DNA of 59,264 bases from a bacterium. GTDB taxonomy: Bacteria; Bacteroidota; Bacteroidia; NS11-12g; UBA955. Made by a program: the position numbers and the translations under genes. Under the pieces are notes generated by a model, which saw only the letters and a program-made list of their open reading frames with translations, was not told the origin of the DNA and made no database searches. The stretch is taken from the NCBI GenBank assembly GCA_029945665.1, contig JAQSCZ010000111.1:1-59264 (forward strand). Direction: 5' to 3'. Shown piece after piece: positions 52,633 to 55,905 of this stretch (the stretch's first letter is position 1; every line of letters starts with the position of its first letter).

Positions 52633-55600
52633 TTAAACCACCACATTCACAATCCGCCCTTTTACTACAATTACCTTTTTAGGTGTTTTGCCTTCTAAAT
52701 ATTGTTGTGTTTGTTCATTCGCAATTACTTGTACTTCCACTTCTTTTAAATCCATATCCAAAGCAAAGTTTAAATTGAATCTTACCTTGCCATTAAACGA
52801 GATTGGATAATAAAATTCATTTTCAATTAAATAATCTGCATTAAAACTTGGCCAACTAGCTTTCTCGATACTATCTGCATGTCCACATAGTTTCCAAAGC
52901 TCTTCGCAAATATGAGGTGCATAAGGCGATAATAAAATTAAAAAGGGTTCTAAAATACTGCGCTTATTGCATTTCAAATCCTGCAATTCGTTTACACAAA
53001 CCATAAAGGCACTTACGCTGGTATTGAAACTAAAATGCTCAATATCCTCTGTTGCTTTTTTAATGGTTTTATGCAGAATTTTTAATTCAGCCTTGGTTGC
53101 AACTTCTTCGCTAATTTCAAAATCTTCCGTTGGATTATTATGAAACAAACGCCAAGCCTTTTTCAAAAAACGGTGCACCCCTTCTATGCCTTGTGTACTC
53201 CAAGGTTTGGCATCTTGCAAAGGACCTAAGAACATTTCATACATGCGCAAAGTATCAGCACCGTATTGCTGGCAGATATCATCAGGATTAACGACGTTGT
53301 GCCAACGCTTAGACATTTTACCAACCTCTGCCTGACAAATGAGTTTTCCATCTTCCAATACATATTCTGCATCTTTAAACTCAGCTGGTCTCCATGCTCT
53401 AAGTTTTTCAATATCAACAATGTTATTAGTTACTAAATTAACATCAATATGAATTGGAGTAGTTTCATATTTACTTTTCAATCCTTCTGATACAAATTTA
53501 TTTTCATTATTTACTCTGTGTACTAAACATGAAATTCCCTGTATCATTCCCTGATTCACCAATTTCTTAAACGGCTCTTCAAAAGGCACCTTCCCAATGT
53601 CTTTTAAAAATTTACACCAAAACCTAGCATATAATAAATGCCCCACAGCATGCTCGCTACCGCCAATATATAAATCAATATTTTGCCAATAATCTACCGC
53701 CTCTTTACTTACAAATTCCTTTGTATTTCGAGGGTCCATGTAACGCAAATAATACCATGATGAACCTGCCCAACCTGGCATGGTCGTGGTTTCTAAAGGA
53801 TATCCTTTGTAGCTCCAATTGGCAGCGCGCGCCAATGGTGGCTCACCTGTTTCCGTTGGCAAGAACTTATCTACAGCTGGCAATATAATTTGATCTAAGT
53901 CTTGTTCATCTACCGCAAAAGGAATTTCATCTTTATAATAAATTGGAATCGGCTCGCCCCAATAACGCTGACGACCAAATACAGCATTGCGCAAACGGTA
54001 ATTGGTTTTACCTTGGCCCAATCCTTCTGCTTCAATTTTTTCAATCGCTTTTTTTACTGCCACTTTTACTTCCATTCCATTCAAAAAATCTGAGTTAATC
54101 AATTGGCCCTCTTTGGCATCATAAGATTCTAACTCAATATTTCCGCCTTCCACCACTTGAGGAATCGGTAAATTAAAATGTTTGGCAAATGCATAATCGC
54201 GACTATCATGGGCCGGCACTGCCATGACAGCACCTGTACCATAACCAGCTAAAACATAATCTCCAATCCAAATTGGTATAGGCGCACCAGTAAATGGATG
54301 CACCGCGTAAGCCCCAGTAAATTGACCGCTAATGGTTTTGACATCGGCCATGCGCTCGCGTTCACTGCGATTTTTCGAGGCAGTTACATAAGCATCAACT
54401 GCTGCTTTACAGTCTTGTGTTGTTATCTGTGCTACCAATTCATGCTCGGGCGCAAGGGTTAAAAACGAAACGCCGAAGATGGTGTCTGGGCGTGTGGTGA
54501 ATACTTCGATGTGTGGGTTGACCTCATCCCCCACCCCCTTCTCCCTGGGAGAAGAGGAGGTAGATTTCGTTTTTTTTATAATATCCCTTAATCTTGATAA
54601 CACGCCTTCTAAATCAGCATTTACCTCCTCATTGGTGAAGCGAATAATTGCAAATCCGTGGTCGTTTAAAATACCTGTTCGTATTTCATCAGAAATTTTA
54701 TTTTCTTCCAAACTATGAATCAAACCATCTATTTCAATAATTAATTTCAATTCAAAAGAAACAAAATCCGCAATAAATCTATCAATAATATGCTGCCTTC
54801 TGAATTTTACATTCTCAACTTGTCTGTCGCGAATATTTTGCCAAATAATATCTTCTGAAAAAGTTTGATTCTTTCTGTTTTCAAGTGCAAATTCTTTTAG
54901 CCTAGCATAGATTTTCTTATCTGCTGTAACAAACCAAAGGTCCTCATCATCACCTTGCTTCTCTATAGCCGAGATGCGTTCCCCTCTCCCTTGTAGAGGG
55001 GCTAGGGGTGAGGTCAACAAAAACCGCAACGATGTTCCCTCGCTCTTGCCGATCCAATTTCTTTGTGCCTCTTTGATACTATCCGTCCAATCGAGGGTAT
55101 CCAATCCTTGTAATAATCTTTCTGCATAAGCAGAGATTCTTAAACTCCATTGCGTCATTAATTTTCTTTCAACCAGATAACCACCGCGTTCGCTCACGCC
55201 ATCCTTCACCTCATCATTCGCCAATACAGTGCCCAACTCTGGACACCAATTCACCATGGTTTCACTTAAAAAAGCCAAACGGTAATTTAACAATATTTTC
55301 TGTTGTTCCTTTTCTGAATAGGCCTTCCATTGGGCTGCATCAAACAAAACTGTTTCTTCGCAAGCGGCTTGAATACCCTTGTTACCAATCGTTTCAAAAG
55401 TTTTAATCAATTCAGAAATAGGCTCGGCTTTATCACTTTGTTTATTGTACCACGCATTAAACAATTGCAAAAATATCCATTGGGTCCAACGGTAATAATC
55501 GGGGTTAGTTGTGCGCACCTCACGACTCCAATCAAAAGAAAAACCAATATTATCTAATTGTTCGCGATACCGCTTAATATTTTCTTCAGTAGTAATGGCG

Positions 55601-55890
55601 GGGTGTTGACCAGTTTGAATAGCATACTGCTCTGCAGGTAAACCAAATGCATCGTAACCCATTGGGTGTAATACATTAAAACCATTGTGGCGCTTGTATC
55701 TAGATACAATGTCACTGGCAATGTAACCTAAGGGATGCCCTACATGCAAACCGGCCCCGCTTGGATAAGGGAACATGTCTAGCACATAGTATTTCGGCAG
55801 TTTGCTATTATTCTCGGCTTTGAATGTTTGATTTTCAGCCCAAAACTTTTGCCAGTTTTTCTCTATGGTATTAAAATGATAAGACGCCAT
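52633..55890 (-). CDS. leuS: Leucyl-tRNA synthetase with in-frame DUF559 insertion
   Basis: About 1085 residues from the ATG at 55890 ('[20 protein letters not shown]'), preceded by a TATTTTTG box at 55906; the longer frame from 55941 lies upstream of the box. Class I synthetase signatures: '[16 protein letters not shown]' (HIGH), '[16 protein letters not shown]' (KMSKS), the editing-domain '[20 protein letters not shown]', and the C-terminal anticodon-binding part. Typical Bacteroidota LeuRS is roughly 920 residues; the surplus of ~167 lies after 'SEGTSLRF' (residues ~291-458) and is a DUF559 nuclease-like module. The frame is intact through it. As the only leuS seen, it is presumably functional. 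Confidence 0.93.
54517..55018 (-). mobile_element. DUF559 endonuclease-like module with inverted-repeat ends inside leuS
   Basis: Ends are inverted repeats: GTTGACCTCATCCCCCACCC from 54517 and, read on the other strand from 55018, GTTGACCTCACCCCTAGCCC. In frame with leuS they translate as '[14 protein letters not shown]' and '[14 protein letters not shown]'. Between them lies a DUF559 domain (PD-(D/E)XK fold, related to Vsr): '[15 protein letters not shown]', '[16 protein letters not shown]', '[12 protein letters not shown]' and '[20 protein letters not shown]', with the expected Glu, Asp and ExD residues. No intein splice motifs are present. No target-site duplication is apparent. Confidence 0.8.
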
Positions 55891-55905
55891 GGTAAATTTA
55901 GGGAG

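Follow-up and report, generated by a model that had tools for sequence, protein, structure and literature searches.

The gene for leucyl-tRNA synthetase (LeuRS) in a Bacteroidota bacterium of the UBA955 lineage carries, in frame and at the entry to the editing domain, a DUF559 nuclease domain between two inverted hairpin ends. This insert is probably an autonomous, non-splicing, translated mobile element of the Bacteroidota, which for the most part is retained at its site or homes to it, and occasionally enters new genes. The DNA analysed, hereafter the window, is the whole 59,264-nucleotide stretch of contig JAQSCZ010000111.1 (assembly GCA_029945665.1). Movement of the element is well supported by the comparison of genomes, and we infer that the nuclease takes part in it. 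The mobility is seen in related genomes and not in the window's own, because just one copy was found there.

The initial annotation had read leuS as open across about 167 extra residues, and this was borne out: the minus-strand frame is unbroken throughout the insert (Table 1). Pfam matches to the catalytic and editing domains of LeuRS flank the DUF559 match (PF04480, E 5e-29, 100.8 bits against a gathering cut-off of 20.6, aa 348–452 of a 1102-aa frame). Mapping of the sequence onto T. thermophilus LeuRS showed that the insert replaces the turn between residues 234 and 242, from which it would loop out. A full-length LeuRS model built without an alignment had a pLDDT of 33. The segment LWFVTADKK in the linker occupies the position of a GYxTxD motif seen in many other inserts. 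In two other loci (L057 and L027), tandem translated repeats such as FSPQERGEG and EINSEKG were observed in the LeuRS linkers adjoining the insert, as if the linkers grow. The genome of the window is a 98.8% complete draft of 126 contigs, in which one LeuRS match and one DUF559 copy were found. Since this LeuRS match is the only one in a genome of such completeness, the insert-bearing LeuRS is presumably the working synthetase of this bacterium.

Table 1. The leuS gene of the window, its insert and the parts of the insert.
Feature	Position	Strand	Remarks
leuS (leucyl-tRNA synthetase including the insert)	52636..55893	-	1086 aa from the ATG of MASYHF
In-frame putative mobile element (DUF559 frame with a hairpin at either end)	54517..55018	-	about 167 residues
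N-terminal-side end of the element	54981..55018	-	head GTTGACCTCACCCCTAG and hairpin 54981-55001; 14 residues when translated
Linker from left hairpin to DUF559	54901..54980	-	holds the LWFVTADKK segment
DUF559 (PF04480), Vsr/EDxHD-like nuclease domain	54586..54900	-	Pfam, fold, conserved residues
C-terminal-side end of the element, inverted	54517..54560	-	head GTTGACCTCATCCCCCAC (plus-strand reading) and hairpin 54538-54554; 13 residues when translated

If the element were removed at the protein or RNA level, as an atypical intein, as an intron or by translational bypass, its tolerance in essential enzymes would be accounted for, and its inverted ends could pair. Such removal is very unlikely. 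No intein (Hint splicing) domain was among the Pfam matches at E ≤ 1 in LeuRS or the insert, and no Rfam family, and hence no catalytic RNA of a group I or II intron, was found at E ≤ 1 in positions 54200-55300, which agrees with the earlier remark that intein and intron motifs are lacking. Furthermore, the frame stays open and the protein sequence is constrained. As no splicing domain was found, the mature protein is expected to retain the insert.

The acidic residues of the DUF559 domain had been described as apparently intact. The residues E25, D54, E65, D67, H71 and D80, candidates for the E, D, xH and D catalytic residues of the EDxHD type, were found to be invariant in all 41 aligned inserts, among twelve invariant positions in all. 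A model of the domain had a pLDDT of 89.6. Its best Foldseek match was 3hrl, a DUF559 structure from Neisseria (E 2.6e-7), and the homing endonuclease I-Bth0305I (3r3p_B) was matched with E 1e-3 and a TM-score of 0.73 by target. By this model, the insert is predicted to have the Vsr-like catalytic fold of the EDxHD/Vsr-type homing endonucleases. The suggested kinship with Vsr-like endonucleases is consistent with both matches; E. coli Vsr itself (1vsr) was matched weakly (E 0.33). The dN/dS of the inserts could be computed for 12 of 13 pairs and was 0.02–0.20 in these; several dS values are saturated, including that of the window's own pair, and the low-divergence pairs therefore carry most weight. 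These comparisons indicate that the nuclease is conserved and under constraint.

The occupancy of the LeuRS site was surveyed in 59 genomes, including the window's own; LeuRS was matched in 56 of them and DUF559 in 15. Two genomes of the same genus (G014, locus L071, and G006, locus L073) have an empty site, at which the short turns ALAKGENS and ALAQTDAS replace the insert. Another genome of the genus (G002) is empty at site 1 and carries a related insert at a different position of the editing domain. A fixed domain carried by all close relatives, the outcome named beforehand as contrary to a mobile element, was thereby found false, as the nearest relatives are empty. On a LeuRS tree of 21 of the 23 loci (G012 and G013 could not be parsed), the filled state needs five changes for five filled rows, and four of these are forced by well-supported branches; the clustering of the filled state does not exceed that of shuffles. 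The five inserts of the window genus form one clade (SH-aLRT 99) that spans LeuRS sites 1 and 3. On this evidence, the DUF559 insert is not a fixed domain of LeuRS, and its occupancy in the genus ignores kinship. That the window genome is a draft with one copy would be compatible with an insertion that is decaying or arose by accident, or with an artefact of the assembly. Such an origin is extremely improbable: the insert is found at the same LeuRS site in separately assembled genomes of the genus, the element type is present in named isolates (e.g., Winogradskyella sediminis, Flavobacterium frigidimaris and Ilyomonas limi), and the frame is open with invariant residues and a low dN/dS.

DUF559 was found in 139 of 295 genomes of the class and in 138 of 247 genomes of a phylum sample; 72 of the 150 copies among the matches listed sit in frames of at least 300 aa. 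A first set of loci contained 99 DUF559 ORFs, 84 of at least 300 aa, picked for long frames or high scores. A second set, taken from the best 80 of 566 related stretches in named genomes, contained 82 ORFs, 72 of at least 250 aa, of which L200, L201 and L268 duplicate copies of the first set and were removed from the counts. As both sets were selected for long frames, high scores or best matches, the counts are not unbiased rates. Internal insertion, with at least 80 residues of frame on each side, was found in 72 of the 84 long-frame ORFs of the first set and in 64 of 69 of the second, i.e., in 136 of 153 distinct ones. The other 17 long-frame copies lie at a gene end or a contig edge (TsaC, HisF, Gmk and others), where the neighbouring frame may simply be open. 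An ATG is present near the domain start in 34 of the 84 long-frame and 11 of the 15 stand-alone copies.

The internal hosts comprise LeuRS (31 cases in the first set and 16 in the second, at three sites) and about 20 other families. Representatives of the following were named by NCBIfam above its curated cut-off: MetH (9 + 22), IleRS (3 + 9), RecG (3 + 6), IcmF (3 + 3), acetyl-CoA synthetase (Acs; four in total), RecJ (three), UvrA (three), MutS (two) and, with one case each, TsaD, CinA, WecB, adenine deaminase and PaaZ. RecB-like and PseC-like hosts (one each) fell below the cut-off; TsaB, a CoA-transferase and an M23-type protein (one each), two PP2C-type and seven restriction/methylase-type proteins were named by eye. 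The remaining members of each host group were assigned by BLAST likeness. By their titles, all of the 80 named loci belong to Bacteroidota except one MAG, Candidatus Nitrotoga. The contig so labelled (L238) bears a Bacteroidota-type MetH with an insert and is possibly mis-binned. In a scan of viral contigs, no relatives of the window insert were found.

This host range bears on the idea that the insert is an old LeuRS domain that serves the synthetase and has been lost repeatedly. The idea is favoured by the concentration at site 1 (21 of 32 first-set LeuRS cases, two rows being reassigned by hand), by the constraint on the insert and by the clustering of inserts by host site on their tree, some having been inherited. 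Yet the same element type is found in unrelated enzymes and at three LeuRS sites, the nearest relatives are empty, and hairpin ends also surround stand-alone copies. An old LeuRS domain is contradicted already by the host range and is highly improbable.

The tree of the inserts was built from few columns and has many unresolved forks. It contains an insert clade of 68 of the 99 DUF559 domains (SH-aLRT 97) with 21 host/site labels, in which RecJ inserts stand beside Acs inserts (90) and an IleRS insert falls within the RecG group (91). The host/site labels are strongly clustered on the whole tree, with 39 changes (40 when L133 is counted as a second IcmF site) versus a shuffled mean of 71.4; LeuRS site 1 needs seven changes on the best tree, two of them forced. 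This clustering suggests that the inserts mostly keep or home to their site and that new genes are entered occasionally; jumps to new genes do not appear from the tree to be frequent. A closer fit of the tree to taxon than to host gene was considered and dropped, as the insert clade needs 28 changes for the 21 host/site labels versus 34 for 24 family labels.

Alleles of the same site were compared in several genes. The Acs comparison was readable in 17 of 19 loci. The turn in question is empty (KEAE and similar) in 10 loci and holds a full element in G144, G262, G269 and G146. The same turn holds a lone hairpin in G184, one in the opposite orientation in G214 and, in G063, a hairpin that is shorter and less perfect. 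Of the species of one genus compared for RecJ, three are filled and three empty, and one was partly seen. Divergence at four-fold sites was compared between inserts and hosts in nine pairs, with p values uncorrected for this number. In G065, the inserts of two different phosphatase-type genes differ at 3 of 36 four-fold sites versus 15 of 22 for the hosts (p 3e-6); the second of these genes starts at the contig edge, with its left flank outside the contig. The corresponding differences were 5 of 29 versus 108 of 195 for RecJ of G214 and G073 (p 1e-4), and 6 of 28 versus 128 of 291 for LeuRS of G011 and G005 (p 0.03). The insert is thus younger than the surrounding host gene in three of the nine pairs; in the other six, the divergence is alike, as by descent. 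Co-conversion of the flanks was not evident in these pairwise insert/host comparisons. The proposal that a mobile element is tolerated here as a protein insertion was upheld by the empty sites, the second LeuRS site, the other host families, the lone-hairpin alleles and the near-identical copies.

The initial annotation had also described inverted-repeat ends that are themselves translated. The arms were confirmed (54517-54537 and 54998-55018; 21 nt, 81% complementary), and each is accompanied by a perfect 7-bp C-rich hairpin. The 10-mer GTTGACCTCA is not the part that recurs. With at most one mismatch, it occurs twice in the window, equal to the shuffle expectation (mean 2.0); both occurrences are the ends of the insert, and ends of like build recur on related elements. 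What recurs is a hairpin of REP-like build, with a C-rich stem and a CCTCACCCC-type head. As single-stranded DNA, the two ends of the window insert do not fold more stably than composition-matched shuffles (z -0.98 and -0.58). Elsewhere in the window genome, neither other DUF559 copies nor further ends of the tested patterns were found; the second outcome named beforehand as contrary to a mobile element, an absence of related copies from the same genome, therefore holds as far as searched.

Among related elements, hairpins were scored when a stem of at least 6 with a pyrimidine-rich 5' arm lay within 250 bp on both sides of a DUF559 copy. In the first set, such two-sided hairpins were found at 57 of 83 long-frame copies (one at a contig edge being omitted) versus 0 of 415 shifted windows, and at 14 of 15 stand-alone copies versus 0 of 41. 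In the second set without duplicates, the values were 41 of 68 versus 0 of 357, and 10 of 10 versus 2 of 54, both of the latter matches being tandem copies in L244. In this locus, from Pedobacter sandarakinus, three stand-alone DUF559 ORFs, each of 134 aa, lie in tandem. Many inserts, including the flavobacterial MetH ones, are without perfect hairpins. Those in L208, L211 and L222 retain the protein motifs and have no perfect hairpin ends, as if fixed and ageing. The stem sequences vary between elements and agree within one: identical 6-nt arms were found in 30 of 68, versus a mean of 7.3 and a maximum of 16 in 5000 shuffles. The heads of the two ends likewise agree more than shuffles do at most of the positions between 8 and 13 nt outward from the stem; part of the end-to-end agreement may reflect the likeness among all repeats of a genome. 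In a search for a palindromic target (103 elements, including two duplicates), the likeness of the two ends fades at about 13 nt from the stem. Direct repeats of 3–9 nt were no commoner than in shuffled sequences (101 elements), i.e., there was no sign of the target-site duplication of DDE transposons and MITEs.

Hairpins also occur by themselves. In 87 of 295 genomes, one common end pattern occurs as a dispersed repeat, with up to 84 copies each, and the reversed pattern occurs at most once per genome. DUF559 is present in 71 of the 87 repeat-bearing genomes versus 68 of the 208 others, uncorrected for kinship; it was undetected in two of the 26 genomes with at least 10 repeats, both less than 90% complete. 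The 34 pattern sites examined in 28 loci, two of which are the ends of a MetH element, mostly lie in short, intergenic-looking frames and in a few cases in frame in genes. A histidine-kinase-like ORF was seen to contain a lone hairpin in frame, and another ORF to contain two in its C-terminal part (L166 and L167; identities by eye).

Such repeats might be non-autonomous, REP- or MITE-like sequences that are moved by another enzyme, e.g., a RAYT/Y1 transposase, with DUF559 as a passenger between two of them. RAYTs are the usual movers of REPs. RAYT genes were present in 16 of 16 genomes tested, lone hairpins exceed DUF559 copies in some genomes (84 versus 4 in G214), and no target-site duplication was found; we know of none in REPs either. 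However, a C-rich hairpin of this kind was found near only one of the 26 RAYT loci scanned (30 were fetched), so that the REPtron arrangement, in which repeats flank the RAYT gene, was not seen as a rule, and yet the hairpin lies beside most DUF559 copies. The two ends of one element match beyond shuffles, and the nuclease is conserved. A passenger role of DUF559 is therefore unlikely. At one locus (L181, G196), a RAYT gene is flanked on both sides by a different palindrome, AGCAGGGGATTTAAATCCCCTGCT, which looks like an ordinary REP-RAYT pair. Some REPs are located inside repair genes (PMC3733652). The element resembles REPs and REPtrons in its small hairpins, which look intergenic when alone and form inverted pairs round a gene, but it differs in its head and its C-rich stems, and DUF559 takes the place of the Y1 transposase.

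The mobile nuclease element favoured here resembles three further systems. Rickettsia palindromic elements (RPEs) are described in a review (PMC10969869) as palindromic repeats of about 150 bp that lie in frame in unrelated genes and are retained in the protein. The comparison with RPEs and homing elements, drawn at the outset, stands as regards palindrome-bearing in-frame inserts in unrelated genes and fails as regards an element that is short and nuclease-free: here, a conserved nuclease domain lies between two hairpin ends, and members of the family occur across a phylum. To our knowledge, RPEs encode no nuclease. Inteins with homing endonucleases are likewise in-frame selfish nucleases in conserved genes with empty and filled alleles, but the LeuRS insert has hairpin ends and is without a splicing domain. 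With I-Bth0305I, the element shares the fold of the catalytic domain. In addition to this domain, I-Bth0305I has regions that bind DNA, and its target is very long (PMC3943268), whereas here the domain measures about 120 aa and sits by itself between linkers within a host enzyme. One study (PMC9403480) assigned a DUF559 gene from Thermosynechococcus to the EDxHD family.

In this reading, the element is a Vsr/EDxHD-type (DUF559) nuclease frame with a C-rich hairpin at one end and an inverted hairpin at the other, all in one open reading frame; copies are found in protein-coding genes as well as by themselves. DUF559 may cut the target, whereupon repair would copy the element in, or it may process the hairpin ends; either route would leave no target duplication. 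Where the element lands in frame within a surface turn, its hairpins would be translated as Pro/Ser/Gly-rich linkers, and the nuclease would persist unspliced as an extra domain of an enzyme that is otherwise intact. The linkers, being flexible, could keep the host enzyme active. In the gene-internal copies, the frame of the host is kept open, and it was by such open frames that these copies were found.

The selfish DNA known from essential genes consists mainly of splicing elements (introns and inteins) or of short palindromes (RPEs). We know of no described element that combines the in-frame logic of RPEs, the fold of a homing endonuclease and the hairpin build of REPs, and a literature search, mostly of open-access papers, found no description of such elements. 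They look like a little-noticed form of selfish DNA. It is plausible, at an even balance, that they represent a further homing-type lifestyle beside introns and inteins, in which autonomous, translated and never-excised hairpin-ended nuclease elements use essential enzymes as vehicles, and in which copies without their own start codon yield the nuclease only within the host enzyme. If this is true, a frameshift that silences such a copy would kill the host gene, because the nuclease is then made solely within the host enzyme. A folded nuclease domain is apparently tolerated unspliced, phylum-wide, in aminoacyl-tRNA synthetases, mismatch and excision repair proteins, helicases and metabolic enzymes. 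The inserts are a likely reason for the odd length of some housekeeping enzymes of Bacteroidota. The element serves as a natural experiment on the insertion of domains, may give rise to new nuclease fusions and is a test case for the spread of REP-like hairpins; its mechanism is open to testing through the empty, lone-hairpin and full alleles.
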